A DNA stretch of 64,000 nt from Leptolyngbya sp. CCY15150 (lineage in GTDB: Bacteria; Cyanobacteriota; Cyanobacteriia; RECH01), in contig NZ_JACSWB010000147.1 in assembly GCF_016888135.1 (NCBI RefSeq), forward strand, positions 124,001-188,000, given 5' to 3'. The position numbers were made by a program, and so were the translations under genes. Under the pieces are notes generated by a model. It saw nothing but the letters and a program-made list of their open reading frames with translations. It was not told the origin of the DNA and ran no database searches. Positions 6,882 to 15,215 of the stretch are shown one piece after another. The stretch's first letter is position 1. Every line of letters begins with the position of its first letter.

Positions 6882-8105
6882 ATGTCTACTAATGATTTTT
6901 TGTTGTTCATTGATGCAAATAAATACTTAGACTTGTATCGTATAGATCAAGGAAAAAAGCTGCTTGCACCCTTAGGAGAGCAGGTAGATTATATTTTCGT
7001 GACACAACAAATTGTTAATGAAGTCCAGCGTAACAAGATCCTAGTAGCAGCCGACTTCTTGAAGGAAAAGGTTAAGGAACTGAAGCTGAAGACTTTTAAC
7101 TTGCCAGATCACTTGTCTGCGAGTATTGATCATCGCACGGAAATTCTCCATCAAATGAGCGAGATTTCTCAAAATATTAAGAAAGTAAATGCTGAGATAG
7201 ATGCTTTGGTATTAAGCATCATGGAGCAAATCAGTCGCTCAGAAGATGAAGTATCAAAGGCACTCTCTCCAATTTTTGCTAATGCTATTCCTCATTCTTC
7301 TGAAGAATTACAAAGAGCGAGAGAACGTAGGGAGCTTGGCAATCCGCCAGGAAAAATTACTAATCCGATAGGTGATCAACTGACTTGGGAGCAGATTCTT
7401 ACTCGTTTTAAAGGTAAAAAACGGCTATGGATTATTTCCAGAGATGGTGACTACGGCACTGTCTACGGTGGTCAAGGCTTCGTGAACCATTTTCTCTATA
7501 ACGAACTATGTAGCATTACACCTGAACCTGAGGTCTATCTCTTTCAAGATATTGTTGAGGGCATCAGTCATTTTGTTGATACAACCAGGGTTAAGGCAGA
7601 CAATCGCTTGACCCCTGAAGAAGTAGAAGAGATTGAGAGGGAAGAAAAGTCTTTGCCCAACCTGACTCAACTAAATAAAAATCTACTACAGGCAATTGAA
7701 AGTGTGAGACAGCTTAGCCATCTAAATGAAAGTGCGCTTAGCCAGCCAAATGGAAGTGTGCTTAGCCAGCTAAGCGAAAGTGTGAGACAGCTTAGCCAGC
7801 CACATAAAAGTGTGCTATGGGCAATCGAAAGTGTAAGACAGTTTAATCAGCCAAGTGAAAGCATGCAGCAGGCAATCGACAGTCTGATTAATCAGCCAAG
7901 TGAAAGTATACAGCAGGCAATCGACAGTCTGACTCAACAAAACGAAGGTTTGTTAAGAGTATTTAGTGAAGCTCAAAAAAATTCGAGCCAGATATATCAA
8001 CCTTTAGAGAACACTCAGGAAGAATTAAAGGAAGAAAACGAAAAGCCTAGAATTTTTCCGCCATCATCCAGAGAAAGTGAGAACGGCGAAGAAGATTTGG
8101 GATGA
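6882..8105 (+). CDS. PIN-like (DUF4935-type) protein with tandem C-terminal repeats
   Basis: A 407-residue protein. The N-terminal FIDANKYLDLYRI (D11, D17), a TQQIVNEVQRN helix around residue 45, and ISRDGDYG around residue 185 fit a PIN-type nuclease fold of the DUF4935 kind, with acidic residues suited to metal-dependent RNA cleavage. Residues about 255-345 are a helical region of degenerate repeats, built on the units SVRQLSQ and NQPSES.QQAIDSL; the last two units are exact 45-bp tandem copies in the DNA. The C-terminal tail is charged. Codon use is AT-richer and lacks HIP1 sites, unlike the mannosidase gene beside it, which suggests recent acquisition. Such proteins are often associated with defence or toxin-antitoxin loci; this role is inference. 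Confidence 0.65.
   Translation: MSTNDFLLFIDANKYLDLYRIDQGKKLLAPLGEQVDYIFVTQQIVNEVQRNKILVAADFLKEKVKELKLKTFNLPDHLSASIDHRTEILHQMSEISQNIKKVNAEIDALVLSIMEQISRSEDEVSKALSPIFANAIPHSSEELQRARERRELGNPPGKITNPIGDQLTWEQILTRFKGKKRLWIISRDGDYGTVYGGQGFVNHFLYNELCSITPEPEVYLFQDIVEGISHFVDTTRVKADNRLTPEEVEEIEREEKSLPNLTQLNKNLLQAIESVRQLSHLNESALSQPNGSVLSQLSESVRQLSQPHKSVLWAIESVRQFNQPSESMQQAIDSLINQPSESIQQAIDSLTQQNEGLLRVFSEAQKNSSQIYQPLENTQEELKEENEKPRIFPPSSRESENGEEDLG
7843..7932 (+). repeat. 45-bp tandem repeat, two copies, inside the PIN gene
   Basis: Copies at 7843-7887 and 7888-7932 differ only in the middle (gcatg against gtata). They encode two 15-residue units NQPSESMQQAIDSLI and NQPSESIQQAIDSLT. Weaker related units lie at about 7690-7840. 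Confidence 0.9.
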
Positions 8106-8241
8106 TTTCAGAACTAGGCAAAAAGTATTAAAAAGGCTTTAAAGCGCCTAATGCAAATCCGTTAAGATATGCTTTCATTTTTCATGCCTTAACCCAATAA
8201 CACTGATTGATTAGGTAAACACGATAGAGGTCTTAAAACCG

Positions 8242-8448
8242 ATGACGTTTAGCGATGTGGTCGAGGTAGTCAAAAGCCTTTCTACAGATGAAAAGCGTGA
8301 AATTCAGTTTTTATTGCAACAATATATCCGCGAGGAACGCCGTGATGAGATGTATGCTAACTTCAAGGCAACTCAAGTTGAACAGCAAAAAGGTGAGTTG
8401 AAGTTTTCCTCCAATATTAAGGAGTTGCAACAATTGATATTGGAGTGA
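8242..8448 (+). CDS. small antitoxin-like protein, 68 aa
   Basis: A 68-residue, highly charged helical protein (MTFSDVVEVVKSLSTDEKRE, then LLQQYIREERRDEMY). The pattern is typical of small cyanobacterial proteins found as upstream partners of type II toxins, but no toxin gene follows: the next 300 bp hold a decayed mannosidase fragment. The gene lies 136 bp after the PIN gene on the same strand and shares its AT-richer composition, so it may have come with it. It could be an antitoxin left over after loss of its toxin, or a partner of the PIN protein. Confidence 0.5.
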   Translation: MTFSDVVEVVKSLSTDEKREIQFLLQQYIREERRDEMYANFKATQVEQQKGELKFSSNIKELQQLILE

Positions 8449-8456
8449 TTGTGGAA

Positions 8457-8597
8457 GTCAGTGTCGCCGGTTGGTTAATCTGTTGGAGGAAAAGCAAGTC
8501 TTGGATGTCTACTTAGCTTGTCCTTGGGCGATCGCTCCTCCCAACCTACACTCAATCTACGGGATAGGCTAGACTTGATGCACCTTGCAAGCGATCG
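8457..8597 (+). pseudogene. decayed second copy of the mannosidase 3' end
   Basis: From 8474 the frame reads VNLLEEKQVLDVYLACPWAI and on to a stop at 8570-8572; it aligns with the true C terminus of the mannosidase (VNLLEEEQALEVPSDRPWAI). Upstream of 8474 a 4-base insertion shifts the frame, and no further mannosidase sequence is recognisable. Beyond the stop the homology continues through GATAGGCTAGACTTGAT to GCGATCG. It is a fragment left by duplication or by insertion of the block 6836-8456. The remaining sequence to 8766 holds two HIP1 sites and no gene that I can support. Confidence 0.8.
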
Positions 8598-8766
8598 CTC
8601 TGCCACAGGAGCTAAATCTGGACGCCTCGTACTTATGGAGGTGCGATCGCGGATTTGGCTTTAGATGGGCTGTACTGAGTTGGCTGAGACGAAGCTCTTA
8701 AGCCTTTATCACGTTAGATTTTGATATAGTTGTATACAGTTTAGCTTTTTGCAAGAGATTGGGGCT

Positions 8767-8997
8767 ATGCGGTCAATTGAGCAACTGACTGAGAAACTAT
8801 TGTCCTTGCCTAGCAAGTCAAGAGCACTCTTGGCAGACAAGTTGGTGGAAAGCTTAGAGTTAGATGCCGACTCAATCATTCAGGTAGTCTGGTTAATCGA
8901 AGCTAGGCTTCGAAGAGACGAGGTGCGAAATGGTTCTATTCAACCCATTTCAGGGGACGATGCTTTGGCGCAAGCTAGACGACGGATTGAGCCATGA
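8767..8997 (+). CDS. addiction-module antitoxin-like protein, 76 aa
   Basis: MRSIEQLTEKLLSLPSKSRA followed by LLADKLVESLELD is the typical start of putative addiction module antitoxins (TIGR02574/PF09720 type), whose partners are RelE/ParE toxins. The ATG at 8767 begins at the family's usual N terminus; the longer TTG start at 8749 adds only six residues. The middle (IIQVVWLIEARLRRDEVRNG) and the C-terminal DALAQARRRI also fit. No RelE/ParE gene follows; the next gene is another small antitoxin-like protein 33 bp away. It is probably an orphan antitoxin. Confidence 0.65.
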   Translation: MRSIEQLTEKLLSLPSKSRALLADKLVESLELDADSIIQVVWLIEARLRRDEVRNGSIQPISGDDALAQARRRIEP

Positions 8998-9030
8998 GAT
9001 ATGTATTTTATCCTGCAAGGAGGAATAAAA

Positions 9031-9237
9031 ATGCCGACTAATGCTTCGTTAGAGGAACGTCTTGCAGCAATAGAAGCTGCGATCGCTCAATTGCAGCAGC
9101 AAACTGAAATCTCTCAACAGGTGAACTGGCTGCAACAAATTACCGGGTCATTCAAGGATGAGCCTGCCTTTGAAGAGGTACTTGCCTATGGACGAGCAAT
9201 CCGCCAAGGGAATGAGTCTCTACTGGCTGAGTACTAG
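9031..9237 (+). CDS. small antitoxin-like protein, 68 aa
   Basis: A 68-residue protein starting MPTNASLEERLAAIEAAIAQ with a short coiled coil to about residue 35, then ITGSFKDEPAFEEVLAYGRA. The second part is a pattern I know from cyanobacterial antitoxins that precede VapC-type PIN toxins. The strong ribosome site AAGGAGG at 9018-9024 places the start at 9031 instead of 9001. No VapC gene follows; 76 bp later brnT begins. It may be an orphan, or its toxin was replaced by the brnT/brnA module. Confidence 0.6.
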   Translation: MPTNASLEERLAAIEAAIAQLQQQTEISQQVNWLQQITGSFKDEPAFEEVLAYGRAIRQGNESLLAEY

Positions 9238-9312
9238 AAATTAAGTCGAATCCAGGCATTTAGCGCTAGCATGTATTTACATCGTCAATACATATTGCCT
9301 ACAATATAGGGC

Positions 9313-9609
9313 ATGGATGTATATTTCGTGCTCAATGGCATTACCTTCGCTTGGAATGACGAGAAGGCTAGGGTTAATCCCCTAAAGCATAATGGAGTTA
9401 CCTTCCAGCAAGCTGCGGAGGCTTTCTTCGATCCATTCCTTATGGTGGTTGATGCAAGTCGCAATGATGAAGCCCGCGATGCTGTCATTGGTTTGGACAG
9501 ACGCTGGAATCTTTTATATGTCGTCTATATCGAGCGTGAAAACGACACCATTAGGATTATTTCGGCACGCAAAGCGACAAGCAAGGAACGTGAGTACTAT
9601 GAAGGTTGA
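9313..9609 (+). CDS. brnT: BrnT-family type II toxin
   Basis: A 98-residue protein with the BrnT pattern: FAWNDEKARVNPLKHNGVTF near the N terminus, FFDPF in the middle, and the C-terminal IRIISARKATSKEREYYE with the conserved Ser-Ala-Arg-Lys and Glu-Arg-x-x-Tyr. BrnT is a RelE-fold ribonuclease that blocks translation when not bound by BrnA. The gene order toxin-antitoxin and an 11-bp overlap with the next gene fit the BrnT/BrnA system. Confidence 0.88.
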   Translation: MDVYFVLNGITFAWNDEKARVNPLKHNGVTFQQAAEAFFDPFLMVVDASRNDEARDAVIGLDRRWNLLYVVYIERENDTIRIISARKATSKEREYYEG

Positions 9610-10118: not shown

Positions 10119-10730
10119 CTAGGCGCTGGCGGGCAGTCGGTAGGTGACTTTGCTATCGTTAACTACGATGCTGCCTTGCTTTTCCAGATGTTTCATCAAC
10201 AGATCTAAATCCCGAGGCGCTAGCTTTTTGGCAAATAAAGCGTGAATTGAATTGCTGAGGGTTGTCACCGTTCTAGGGCGAGAGTTCCCTCGTTTGGATA
10301 AGTCCTCAATGATCACCTTGATGCGTTCTTCGGTGCTATCAGGAGACTCTGGCGCTAGTGCTTTTGCCAAGGGAATATCTGTAATCGCTGGATGTCTCTG
10401 AATAAGGATTTGCTTGCTTTTCAGATGCTTGACCAATGGATCATATCCCGTATCCTTGGAAATAATATGGAAGTAGTGATCGGGGGATGCTTGGGAAAGT
10501 TGACCGATGTAGAAGGCAAGATGGAAGTCTAGAGAATTCGATCCGCAGTTTTCAATTTTGATGTAGCGACCGCGATCGCCCATCTGCTGTAAGGAATCGG
10601 CAAACTCAAAGGGTACTTTAGATTGATTGCAGCCAATAAACACCATCGCTCTAAAAATGGGGTCTTGGAGTGCATAAAGGTTGGGCGGTTGAACATTTTC
10701 GTAGTCAACCAGCACATGATTAATCTTCAC
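10119..10730 (-). CDS. NYN/PIN-like domain protein
   Basis: A 203-residue protein. The start INHVLVDYENVQPPNL carries the Asp-Tyr-Glu-Asn typical of the NYN/PIN_11-like nuclease fold; SLDFHLAFYIGQLSQ and HIISKDTGYDPLVKHL supply the further conserved acidic residues (the latter like the SGDxDF motif of NYN proteins). Residues about 130-203 form a separate helical domain, perhaps winged helix (TVTTLSNSIHALFAKKLAPR). Proteins of this architecture are frequent in cyanobacteria and proteobacteria and are expected to cleave or bind RNA; the target is unknown. It stands alone and converges with brnA. Confidence 0.75.
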   Translation of the reverse strand: MKINHVLVDYENVQPPNLYALQDPIFRAMVFIGCNQSKVPFEFADSLQQMGDRGRYIKIENCGSNSLDFHLAFYIGQLSQASPDHYFHIISKDTGYDPLVKHLKSKQILIQRHPAITDIPLAKALAPESPDSTEERIKVIIEDLSKRGNSRPRTVTTLSNSIHALFAKKLAPRDLDLLMKHLEKQGSIVVNDSKVTYRLPASA

Positions 10731-11156: not shown

Positions 11157-13007
11157 ATGCAAAACGCCTACATTACCCAAATTGGCAAATTCCTGCCCGG
11201 TGACCCCATTGGCAATGATCAAATGGAAGACTACCTTGGACGGGTGGGCGATCGCCCCTCGCGGGTGAAGTCGCGCATCCTCAAAAGCAATGGCATTCAG
11301 CAGCGATACTATGCCCTCGATCGCCAGCAGCAGCCCACGGCGACGAATAGCCAGATGGCGGCGGCGGCGGTGCGCGATCTGTTGCAGCGTGCAGACCTTG
11401 AGCCTCAAACCATTGACCTGCTAGCCTGCGGCACCACTTGGCCAGATCTGCTGGTGCCGGGTTTTGCCAGTATGGTGCATGGCGAACTGTCGGAACTGTC
11501 GCCCCTGGAGGCAGTATCCAATCAGGGGGTTTGCTGTGCGGGGGTGGCGTCGTTGAACTATGCTACGGCCCAGGTGCAGTTGGGGAAGCGTCAGAATGCG
11601 ATCGCCGTGGCCTCGGAACTGGCGTCGCGGTTGTTTAAACACAGTCGCTTTGAGGCGGAGGATGCTATTCAAGCGGGGCAGTCGCTATCCTTTGATGTGG
11701 AATTTTTGCGCTGGATGTTATCCGATGGGGCGGGTGCTCTGTTGGTACAGAATCATCCGGCTGCTCAGGGAATAAGTTTATGCATTGATTGGATCGAGTC
11801 GGTATCCCATGCCAATGCTTATCCGGTCTGTATGTATGCTGGGGTGGATAGCCCAGATACGCTAAAGGGCTGGATGGATTATCCCTCCTATGAAGCGGCG
11901 GCTAGGCAAGGGGTGATCAATCTACGGCAAAATATTCGCTTGCTGGATCAGGTCATTCGTTTAGGCATTGAGGGCTGGCTGCGCTTGATTGAACGGGGGC
12001 GGGTGCGTCCAGAGGAGATCGATTGGCTCCTCTGTCACTATTCATCCCACTTTTTCCGGGGTCAGATTGTAGACTTGTTAACCAAAGCCGGCTGTATGAT
12101 TCCGGAGGAAAAGTGGTTTACTAATCTCTATACCCGAGGAAATACGGGGTGTGCCTCTATTTACCTGATGCTGGAGGAACTCTTCCAGTCGGGTAAGCTC
12201 CAGCCGGGGCAAACCATCTTTTGCTTTGTGCCCGAAAGCGGCCGGTTTACCACCGCCTACATGAAGCTGACGGTGGTGGAAGGGGCGGTGCGGGCGGTGA
12301 GTCTACCCACGGCTGCTGCACCGGTTCAGGTGCCTGCAGAAGCTGTAGATGCTTCGACCGTTTCGGCGGATCTTCTGCGACGTCTAGCGCTGGTGTGGCT
12401 GGAGTTTGAGCGCCAGTTGCGATCGCTCCCCATGATTCGCCGCCTGCATCGCGGGGAGTTCACCTTGGATGACTACAAGGCCCTGCTGCGCAATCTGCGT
12501 CCTCAGGTTGTGGAAGGAGCTCGGTGGATTGCTCGGGCGGCATCGAATATGACCGATTTTCGGCTGCGGTCTACATTTATTGGCCATGCCCAGGATGAAC
12601 ATCGAGATTTCCAGATGCTGGAGCGCAATTATGTATCTGTCGGGGGTGACTTAGAGGAGATTGTCAACGCTGAAAAGAATCTTGGTTCCGAGGCGCTATC
12701 GGCCTTTATTTTCCATCAAGCCTCCCGCGAGAATCCTGTGGACTTGGTGGGCAGTATGTTTATGATCGAGGGGCTGGGCAATCAGTTGGCGGGGCAATGG
12801 GCCACCTTGATCCAGCAAACCCTGGGATTGACCAAAGAGCAGGTTTCTTTCCTGGCCTATCACAGTGCCAATGATGAATCCCACATTGCTAAACTTGATG
12901 CCATTCTCAATGCCGAATGGATGACCGCAGCGATCGCTGATCGGATTGTGAAAACTGCCCAAGTCACGGCTCGTTTGTATGTGCTGCAATTGGAGGAAAT
13001 TCGCTAA
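11157..13007 (+). CDS. ketoacyl synthase III fused to haem-oxygenase-like diiron oxidase domain
   Basis: A 616-residue two-domain protein. Residues 1 to about 375 are a thiolase-fold ketoacyl-ACP synthase III with an intact triad: C127 (in GVCCAGV), H294 (in LLCHYSSH) and N329 (in RGNTGCAS), so it should condense an acyl thioester. Residues about 376-405 are a Pro/Ala-rich linker. Residues about 405-616 are helical and resemble the HDO superfamily (UndA, CADD, BesC, SznF): E453, the stretch HAQDEHRD (477-484), E538 in MIEG, and the exact H-x3-D-x2-H motif H569/D573/H576. A natural reading is that the synthase makes a beta-keto or condensed acyl product that the diiron domain then oxidises or decarboxylates. 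It is coupled to the next gene by TAATG. The start at 11157 matches the usual N terminus of KAS III. Confidence 0.8.
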   Translation: MQNAYITQIGKFLPGDPIGNDQMEDYLGRVGDRPSRVKSRILKSNGIQQRYYALDRQQQPTATNSQMAAAAVRDLLQRADLEPQTIDLLACGTTWPDLLVPGFASMVHGELSELSPLEAVSNQGVCCAGVASLNYATAQVQLGKRQNAIAVASELASRLFKHSRFEAEDAIQAGQSLSFDVEFLRWMLSDGAGALLVQNHPAAQGISLCIDWIESVSHANAYPVCMYAGVDSPDTLKGWMDYPSYEAAARQGVINLRQNIRLLDQVIRLGIEGWLRLIERGRVRPEEIDWLLCHYSSHFFRGQIVDLLTKAGCMIPEEKWFTNLYTRGNTGCASIYLMLEELFQSGKLQPGQTIFCFVPESGRFTTAYMKLTVVEGAVRAVSLPTAAAPVQVPAEAVDASTVSADLLRRLALVWLEFERQLRSLPMIRRLHRGEFTLDDYKALLRNLRPQVVEGARWIARAASNMTDFRLRSTFIGHAQDEHRDFQMLERNYVSVGGDLEEIVNAEKNLGSEALSAFIFHQASRENPVDLVGSMFMIEGLGNQLAGQWATLIQQTLGLTKEQVSFLAYHSANDESHIAKLDAILNAEWMTAAIADRIVKTAQVTARLYVLQLEEIR

Positions 13008-13918
13008 TGGTGTGGATACCTGAACAACGCGATCGCCGCGATCCTAGCACCTGGGATACGCTTTATCTTGACCAAGCAATTCCGGTGGATCCCGTCGCTA
13101 AGTCCTACATGGTGAAGGATCTCAAAAGCTGGTCGCGAAATTATTTACTGATTCCAATCAAGGTCATGGCTAATGTGGGGCTGGCCTGCATTATGACCCT
13201 GAAGCGACTGTTACCCTTTCAGTTTCGCGCCTATGGGTTTATGCATAAAATGGCGGCTTGGTTTTTGCAAACCTTTGTGACACCAGAAGCCTGTTATTTA
13301 ATTGTGCGCCATCTATGTATCGGATCCAATATTGTCAATTTCCTCATTGATAATGGCCCTGATCCCACCATAGAGCGATCGCCCCTCTATCCCCGTACGG
13401 TGGCAGATCTGGCAGATCAGGCATTCCTAGAACATGATCTGATTTTGTATAACTTCGTGCTGGATTACCATGAAGCCCAAACTCGTAATCCTGATTGGTT
13501 AGACCAAGTTCGCCGGCGCGGACTCGATTTCAGCAGCGTTCAGCCCGTACATCTAGATATAGACGTGAGCCAACGAGGCTGGCTGCAGGTGCTGGATTTG
13601 GAATGTGCGGTGGAGTTGTTTAAGATTATTTATTCGTTTTGTCTCACCAGCGCTGAGTTCGAACGGGCAGTGATTTCCCTGCAGTTTGATGAAAACTTTG
13701 GGCTATACGTCAGCAAAATCACCGGCGATTATGACTGGAACCACGTCGTGCGCAATCGCCATCCCCTTGCGCCCAACAGTCCTTTTGCCGCAGCCCGCAA
13801 TTTGATGATCCACGGCATCACCTCCGAATATCTTTACCGATATCTGGAGCTAAGTGCTGAGAGCGATCGCGCCTCCCGTCTGTCCGTGGAGATGTCTACA
13901 CAGACCCAGCCAACATGA
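13007..13918 (+). CDS. unrecognised helical protein coupled to the KAS/HDO gene
   Basis: I do not recognise this 303-residue protein. Its ATG overlaps the stop of the previous gene by one base (TAATG), so translation is coupled and a shared pathway is likely. Residues about 45-110 contain amphipathic to hydrophobic helices (YLLIPIKVMANVGLACIMTL, then FMHKMAAWFLQTFVTPEACY), which may bind a membrane or a lipid. Conserved-looking acidic and His residues are spaced along helices (PEACYLIVRHL, FLEHDLILYNFVLDYHEA, LDLECAVELFKIIY), compatible with a metal site but not proof of one. The C-terminal 20 residues are Ser/Thr rich. It could be an acyl carrier partner, a second oxidase or a product-handling protein. 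Confidence 0.7.
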   Translation: MVWIPEQRDRRDPSTWDTLYLDQAIPVDPVAKSYMVKDLKSWSRNYLLIPIKVMANVGLACIMTLKRLLPFQFRAYGFMHKMAAWFLQTFVTPEACYLIVRHLCIGSNIVNFLIDNGPDPTIERSPLYPRTVADLADQAFLEHDLILYNFVLDYHEAQTRNPDWLDQVRRRGLDFSSVQPVHLDIDVSQRGWLQVLDLECAVELFKIIYSFCLTSAEFERAVISLQFDENFGLYVSKITGDYDWNHVVRNRHPLAPNSPFAAARNLMIHGITSEYLYRYLELSAESDRASRLSVEMSTQTQPT

Positions 13919-13928
13919 AGTTCGATAA

Positions 13929-15215
13929 CTAACGCTGGTTCCAGGCCTGTTCTGCATCCGCGATCGCCTGTTCAACGGTCTTCTGGTCAAGCATCGCAGC
14001 CTGCAGATTCTCGTAGACAATTTTCTGCAGTACCTTGATGTCTTCAAGGGGGGGCAGCAACACCTCCGCCTCGCCCATTTGGCTAGCGCTCACCACCCGC
14101 GCCTGATCGGCTGGGGCTGCATCATCAGCGATTTGGGTAAAATACTCGTCTTCCAAGGCGGCTATTGTGGAAGGCAGCACGTTGGCTTCTTTAGCAAAGG
14201 CGAGTTGATTAGCGTCGTTGGTGACGTAGAGGGCAAACTTCACGGCAGCTTCGGGGCTGTCGGTGCTGCGGGGGACGACTAAGTTCATCACGGCAACATT
14301 CTTAGCGCCAGTGGTGCCGGTAATCTGAGGTGTGGCGATGGAGGTGGCAGCGATCGCGGGAGCATTGGTGGCGATCGTCGAGAGAAATTGGGGCCCGGTA
14401 GATAGCAAGGCTACTTCCCCGGATTGGTAAAGTTCAATGGCGCGACGATGTCCTTGGGTCAGGGCTTCACGGGGCAGGAGGCCGTCTTTATAGAGGGTGA
14501 CCCAATAGTCAAAGGCGGCAAGCCCTGCAGGTGTATTGAAGGCCGCTTGCCCTTGCTCATCGACTAATTGCACGCCCATTTTCACAAAAGATTGCAGCAC
14601 TTCGGCAGAGTCTTCTGGCACAAAGGAGACGAAAAAGGCGTACTTACCGGTGCGTTCCCGTATTTGGGCAGCAGCGGCAGCGAGTTCCTCAAAGGTGCTG
14701 GGCGGGGTGGTGATGCCAGCCTCGTCTAGAATGGCCGTATTGCTAATGGTGATACTGGTGGCTAGGTACCAAGGCAGGGCAAAGCTTTGACCATTGAGGC
14801 TATTGGCTTGCCAAATCTTGGATAGATACTGTTGCTGCACCTCAGCAGGCACCTGCTCGTTCAAATCTAGCCAGGCATTGCGACCGGCTAACTGCAGGGC
14901 AAAGTCGGGGTTGAGGTTGACTACGTCTGGGGCTGTACCGGCGGATACGGCCGTGAGGATTTTGCTCTGCATGTCTGACCAAGGCACATCCACCCAACGC
15001 ACGGCCAGGTCGGGATTGTCGGACTCAAATTCGGCGATCAAGGTATTGAAATAGTCTGTGAAGTCGGGCTGGAGCTGCATCGTCCAAAACTCAATTTCTT
15101 GGCGACCATCAGCGGATTGCCCAGACGGCGTGCCGCTACAGCCAAGCAATGCACTGAGCAGGATGCCTAGGACTGCAAATAGGCTGAACCGTTTCCAACT
15201 CTTCCACCGTTTCAT
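13929..15215 (-). CDS. ABC transporter substrate-binding lipoprotein, sugar type
   Basis: A 428-residue extracytoplasmic solute-binding protein (family 1). A signal peptide with lipobox ends at C26 (SALLGC), so it should be anchored in the outer leaflet of the inner membrane. The mature part has the usual motifs: IEFWTMQ, TAPDVVNLNPDFA, LPWYLATS, and a C-terminal Gly-Lys-free region typical of sugar binders. The substrate is not evident; sugars such as glucosylglycerol, maltose or trehalose are common for this family. No permease or ATPase gene is nearby, so the rest of the transporter is encoded elsewhere. It converges with the helical protein gene (10 bp gap). Confidence 0.88.
   Translation of the reverse strand: MKRWKSWKRFSLFAVLGILLSALLGCSGTPSGQSADGRQEIEFWTMQLQPDFTDYFNTLIAEFESDNPDLAVRWVDVPWSDMQSKILTAVSAGTAPDVVNLNPDFALQLAGRNAWLDLNEQVPAEVQQQYLSKIWQANSLNGQSFALPWYLATSITISNTAILDEAGITTPPSTFEELAAAAAQIRERTGKYAFFVSFVPEDSAEVLQSFVKMGVQLVDEQGQAAFNTPAGLAAFDYWVTLYKDGLLPREALTQGHRRAIELYQSGEVALLSTGPQFLSTIATNAPAIAATSIATPQITGTTGAKNVAVMNLVVPRSTDSPEAAVKFALYVTNDANQLAFAKEANVLPSTIAALEDEYFTQIADDAAPADQARVVSASQMGEAEVLLPPLEDIKVLQKIVYENLQAAMLDQKTVEQAIADAEQAWNQR

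Follow-up and report, generated by a model that had tools for sequence, protein, structure and literature searches.

A conserved StlD/DarB-family ketosynthase fused to a haem-oxygenase-like domain, with a DUF6999 partner, in Leptolyngbya sp. CCY15150

The gene pair and its setting

The window analysed here is a stretch of 64,000 nucleotides from Leptolyngbya sp. CCY15150 (contig NZ_JACSWB010000147.1, positions 124,001 to 188,000 of the forward strand), to which all coordinates of the locus refer. On the plus strand it carries an open reading frame of 616 amino acids (11157-13007), in which a ketosynthase (KS) is fused to a haem-oxygenase-like (HDO) domain, followed by an open reading frame of 303 amino acids (13007-13918) that encodes a helical protein of the DUF6999 family (PF22523; 352.4 bits against a cut-off of 27). 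The two genes are coupled by a TAATG stop/start overlap of one base (13005-13009). A first-pass annotation made from the letters alone had proposed both this coupling and the union of a KAS III-fold ketosynthase with an HDO in one frame; the one-base overlap and the 616-residue frame with its C-terminal PF14518 match bear these proposals out. The flanking genes (10119-10730 and 13929-15215) both lie on the opposite strand, and the fusion and DUF6999 therefore stand alone. Comparison of the neighbourhoods of the loci described below found no conserved third gene around the pair, predicted promoters and terminators were no more numerous than in shuffled sequence, and a PADLOC scan of the two proteins gave no match. 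The fusion is present as a single copy in its own genome.

Both genes bear the marks of function, since synonymous changes far exceed replacement changes relative to a 98%-identical homologue (L003): dN is 0.007 and dS 0.22 in the KS domain (dN/dS ∼0.03), 0.002 and 0.24 in the HDO domain (dN/dS ∼0.01), and 0.029 and 0.34 in DUF6999 (dN/dS ∼0.09). The fusion frame and DUF6999 are under strong purifying selection.

The second protein had been described as unknown; at 352 bits it belongs to a Pfam family, and that family is itself without a known function. Its model is helical, with a pLDDT of 92. Foldseek gave no usable match to PDB folds (best E 0.5) or to viral models, a profile search of PDB sequences found nothing, and no mention of DUF6999 was found in the literature searched, most subscription journals being outside reach. 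The residues that are invariant in the family include R101, H102, N116, H143, D144, D228, H269 and E274, a conserved set that looks like a functional site.

The fused ketosynthase and oxidase-like domains

The ketosynthase domain (residues 1-374; 11157-12278) belongs to the StlD/DarB family: residues 4-374 score 458.1 bits with NF005293 (curated cut-off 450), and FabH-type models give 92 bits at most. With the DarB-specific model NF053539 the score is 406.6 bits against a curated cut-off of 550, which places the domain outside DarB proper. The ketosynthases of the Paenibacillus and Pseudoalteromonas relatives, at 434 and 372 bits, both lie below the family cut-off of 450. StlD of Photorhabdus, an enzyme of stilbene biosynthesis (PDB entries 5gk0 and 5gk2), is the best sequence match (42% identity over the whole KS, E 8e-90) and, among the Foldseek matches listed, also the closest fold (E 2e-30, TM 0.85 on StlD). 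It shares the catalytic triad, Glu154 and the fold with the Leptolyngbya domain and, unlike it, has no attached HDO or DUF6999.

The catalytic residues Cys126 (codon 11532-11534), His294 (12036-12038) and Asn329 (12141-12143) are all present, together with Glu154 (11616-11618), which follows the Ser of an ASE motif. Cys126 and His294 are invariant and Asn329 is found in 54 of 55 sequences; Glu154 occurs in all of the StlD/DarB-type ketosynthases aligned and is not shared by the organism's own FabH. The histidine and asparagine had been assigned correctly in the first-pass annotation; the cysteine had been placed at position 127, where several family members have Ser, Leu, Ala or Gly. In the alignment, Cys126 is the sole cysteine common to StlD, to the DarB-like ketosynthases of Bacteroides, Prevotella and Streptomyces and to the organism's own FabH. 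The label KAS III likewise holds for the fold, and the domain is better described as an StlD/DarB-family ketosynthase which, judging from its relatives, is ring-forming rather than simply chain-extending. DarB produces 4-carboxy-2,5-dialkylcyclohexane-1,3-diones and StlD their styryl analogues (PMC5515871). In a small tree, the DarB and StlD enzymes separate from the module ketosynthases with moderate support; exclusivity of the module group is not established, because a Streptomyces ketosynthase without an HDO nests inside it.

The two domains are joined by a flexible linker (12279-12359) of low pLDDT, the length and sequence of which vary between genomes. In the model of the fusion, residues 378-399 have pLDDT values below 50 and are predicted to be disordered, and the total length of the fusion ranges from 607 to 733 amino acids among homologues. 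Such a disordered and length-variable linker, as modelled, suits the role of a tether. In Leptolyngbya sp. SIOISBB (L047, 11228-11254), the KS and HDO form two reading frames, separated by a linker with in-frame stops and short repeats. Another genome (G170, locus L064) retains a fusion frame of 697 amino acids with a longer linker.

The HDO domain (residues 402-616; 12360-13004) is all-helical in the model and matches PF14518, the family of iron-containing redox enzymes and HDOs, with 37.3 bits (gathering cut-off 28.9); 41 of 42 homologues match the family at E ≤ 0.001. A PDB profile search with this domain found only 3dde, an uncharacterised HO-fold protein. Foldseek on the whole fusion returned only KS structures among the matches listed, and the HDO fold lies outside that test.

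In a published survey (PMC11363339) the HDO ligand motif is E-H-E-H-(D/E)-H, and a single helix supplies its first two residues. The fusion instead reads E-D-E-H-D-H, with Asp484 at the second ligand in all homologues; the remaining ligand positions, Glu481, Glu538, His569, Asp573 and His576, show little or no variation across phyla. The helix that carries the first ligands has the motif H477-x3-E481-H482-x-D484 (HAxDEHRD; 12585-12608), whose four numbered residues are invariant in 42 homologues, the unfused Pseudoalteromonas protein being included for Asp484, and His477, Glu481 and Asp484 (i, i+4, i+7) lie on one helix face. Glu538 (12768-12770) is found in 53 of 54 sequences and aligns with the HDO glutamate, and H569-x3-D573-x2-H576 (12861-12884) is invariant. 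In close relatives from Alteromonas, Citrobacter and Salinivibrio the ligand helix reads EEEMGHQ or similar, with Glu and His three residues apart and 12 residues before a Gly. His482 was considered as the canonical histidine, its spacing of 56 residues to Glu538 being HDO-like, but Asp484 is preferred on the strength of the alignment and of the constant spacing of 12 residues to the Gly. The metal ligands originally proposed stand in the case of Glu538 and the H569-x3-D573-x2-H576 motif, which are conserved and aligned with those of known HDOs. Glu453, also proposed, was rejected as the first ligand: it has no histidine at a spacing of 3, 7 or 10, is Glu or Asp among homologues (42:13) and is on the wrong helix, an auxiliary one; it is at most an extra ligand. 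This pattern of conservation supports a metal site in which one ligand has changed from His to Asp. The site probably persists with a changed set of ligands, either two histidines and four carboxylates or, with His477, three histidines and four carboxylates; altered metal binding is possible, since one canonical ligand is Asp and not His.

Distribution of the module and related systems

A search across 84,980 species genomes gave 53 loci with related proteins, nearly all of them cyanobacterial, with further members in Paenibacillus and Acidobacteria (48-52% identity). As the search patterns were derived from the window protein, this count under-represents distant relatives. With the window included, 49 of 54 loci have DUF6999 directly after the fusion. 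Of the five exceptions, three are cut off by a contig edge and two (L022 and L038) have DUF6999 on another contig of the same genome. A stop/start overlap of 1 or 4 bases recurs in 24 of 48 other loci. Nine of 386 cyanobacterial genomes contain an intact fusion, and DUF6999 is above its cut-off in exactly those nine. In the window's own order, three of four genomes have both the fusion and DUF6999 and the fourth has neither. In a tenth cyanobacterial genome among the 386 (G099) stop codons interrupt the fusion and DUF6999 is missing; the module can thus disappear as a whole. This broken copy (L094, G099:C1, ∼7886-9499, minus strand) has two internal stops and a truncated HDO; its genome, like those of several carriers, belongs to family f11.

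Searching with DUF6999 revealed a further acidobacterium, with the same fusion directly upstream. In Pseudoalteromonas sp. THAF3 the KS, the HDO and DUF6999 are encoded by three separate, consecutive genes, and the module is therefore independent of the fusion. DUF6999 was not found in 248 other genomes of the Paenibacillus phylum; a Caulobacter control genome gave matches to both DUF6999 and PF14518. One seemingly archaeal ('Euryarchaeota') locus (L049, VBMI01000156.1) was not taken as archaeal: its contig, which shares 93-99.9% identity with an Acidobacteria contig of the same study, is probably misbinned. The HDO and DUF6999 are fixed partners, and the fusion with DUF6999 is a compact pathway that travels between bacterial phyla. 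The first-pass annotation had proposed a compact two-gene pathway in which a ketosynthase passes its product straight to a covalently joined oxidase. The nine-for-nine co-occurrence and the unfused Pseudoalteromonas set lend good support to this reading and to the co-conservation of the pair.

Besides StlD, three known systems invite comparison. The DarAB dialkylresorcinol pathway (flexirubin and bartoloside type) likewise combines a ring-forming ketosynthase of the StlD/DarB family with an adjacent oxidising partner; there the partner is the flavodoxin-like DarA, whereas here it is a fused HDO with DUF6999, and the DarB-specific cut-off is missed. Members of the HDO superfamily (UndA, BesC, SznF, CADD, AetD and FlcD) share PF14518, the helical fold and the Glu and H-x3-D-x2-H ligands at the usual spacing, and the module differs from them in the Asp at the second ligand, in an extra invariant His one turn earlier and in the fusion to a ketosynthase. 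On gammaproteobacterial plasmids, too, an HDO stands in one operon with an acyl-handling enzyme or is fused to it, but this enzyme is an AMP-binding ligase and not a ketosynthase, the HDO has the canonical E-x2-H and its identity to the module HDO is only ∼25%. Four such loci (L109-L112), from Alteromonas, Citrobacter, Salinivibrio and Pseudoalteromonas, have a conserved plasmid operon of 'thermostable hemolysin', AMP-binding ligase, HDO and SDR, and in Pseudoalteromonas shioyasakiensis the AMP-binding ligase is fused to the HDO. For the KS-HDO fusion, the analysis found no characterised family and, in the literature searched, of which most subscription journals were not part, no report. The KS-HDO fusion with DUF6999 is a real, conserved and undescribed module.

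A possible route to oxidised ring lipids

The gene beside darB has been named DAR-aromatase in published clusters (PMC3949708). A flavodoxin-like protein of DarA type, so called from its position and the published naming rather than from direct comparison with a characterised DarA, is present in both of the genomes with a lone DarB-like ketosynthase and has no match in any of the 14 module genomes tested; the oxidising slot beside the ring-forming ketosynthase thus appears to be filled by the HDO. The former two cyanobacteria (G076 and G093; loci L092 and L093) have a 315-residue flavodoxin-like gene next to the lone DarB-like ketosynthase, with a UDP-glycosyltransferase and an ABC-transporter-like set, a gene content resembling that of bartoloside-type dialkylresorcinol clusters. 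The Streptomyces ketosynthase is adjoined by a protein 32% identical to this cyanobacterial flavodoxin-like protein; the plasmid locus (L090, 8706-17144) encodes an ACP, an StlD/DarB-like KS, the flavodoxin-like protein, an FAD monooxygenase, SCP2, FabF and a P450.

For the module we infer ring biosynthesis of the StlD/DarB type with a new oxidising partner. Our leading reading, held with slightly less than even confidence, is that it makes an oxidised lipid with a 2,5-dialkyl six-membered ring, the tethered HDO replacing DarA as the oxidising or aromatising partner. The ketosynthase would take 3-oxoacyl and 2-enoyl thioesters from fatty-acid synthesis, the locus having no dedicated ACP, and would cyclise them to a (4-carboxy-)2,5-dialkylcyclohexane-1,3-dione. 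This product would stay near the flexibly tethered HDO, whose putative dimetal site (Glu481, Asp484, Glu538, His569, Asp573, His576 and perhaps His477) would use O2 to oxidise the ring, the step for which dialkylresorcinol clusters rely on the flavin-type DarA; the outcome would be a dialkylresorcinol or a ring oxidised beyond that stage. DUF6999, synthesised in concert with the fusion, may act on or shield the same lipophilic product, and might modify it, carry it or help to extract it. More speculatively, loss of the 4-carboxylate together with a neighbouring hydrogen could aromatise the ring in one two-electron step, much as UndA decarboxylates fatty acids. That the HDO is such an oxidative-decarboxylating aromatase, so that one polypeptide forms and aromatises the ring, we regard as a rather doubtful extension; the reaction would be new among HDOs, as would the ligand set with its change from His to Asp, and DUF6999 would complete the pathway as a new family of enzymes or carriers.

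Several observations speak against the ring-lipid reading, namely the KS score below the DarB cut-off, the scores of the Paenibacillus and Pseudoalteromonas ketosynthases below the family cut-off and the Asp ligand. The ketosynthase might still make a cyclohexanedione or resorcinol while the HDO, instead of aromatising the ring, hydroxylates, oxygenates (for example to a trihydroxybenzene or quinone) or cleaves it. N-oxygenases and enzymes that cleave C-C bonds are known among the HDOs (PMC13108848), and nothing in the sequence separates aromatisation from hydroxylation; the missing DarA step would, however, need another source or a spontaneous reaction, as no DarA-like gene is present, and we consider this rather unlikely.

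In the first-pass annotation, the chemistry suggested was extension of an acyl chain, after which the linear product would be hydroxylated or turned into an alkene. A ketosynthase of ordinary KAS III or OleA-like type, condensing linear chains that the HDO decarboxylates or desaturates to an alkene, ketone or hydroxy acid, would accord with the common Cys-His-Asn triad and with UndA, a characterised HDO that decarboxylates fatty acids (PMC13108848). Membership of the ketosynthase in the StlD/DarB family makes such chemistry less likely than ring formation and ring oxidation: the domain scores 458 bits with the family model against 92 or fewer with FabH-type models, carries the Glu154 common to StlD/DarB enzymes and has StlD as its closest solved structures among the matches listed. 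We hold the linear route to be improbable. An HDO-fold domain that is not catalytic, and binds the product or a partner as metal-free members of the TenA/PqqC type do while the KS and DUF6999 carry out the chemistry, could explain why every homologue has Asp at the second canonical ligand position. The near or complete invariance across phyla of the five other ligand positions and of His477, needless in a scaffold, and the score above the PF14518 gathering cut-off make this very improbable.

About a dozen HDOs have been functionally validated among more than 10,000 members (PMC13108848). The natural fusion points to the likely substrate of a further subgroup, in a form that is directly testable with two genes, and brings together StlD/DarB ketosynthases, HDO oxidases and DUF6999, a link not found in the literature searched. 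DUF6999 thereby gains a pathway context, and the lipid made by the proposed ring-lipid pathway would be one so far overlooked in filamentous cyanobacteria and in scattered soil and marine bacteria.
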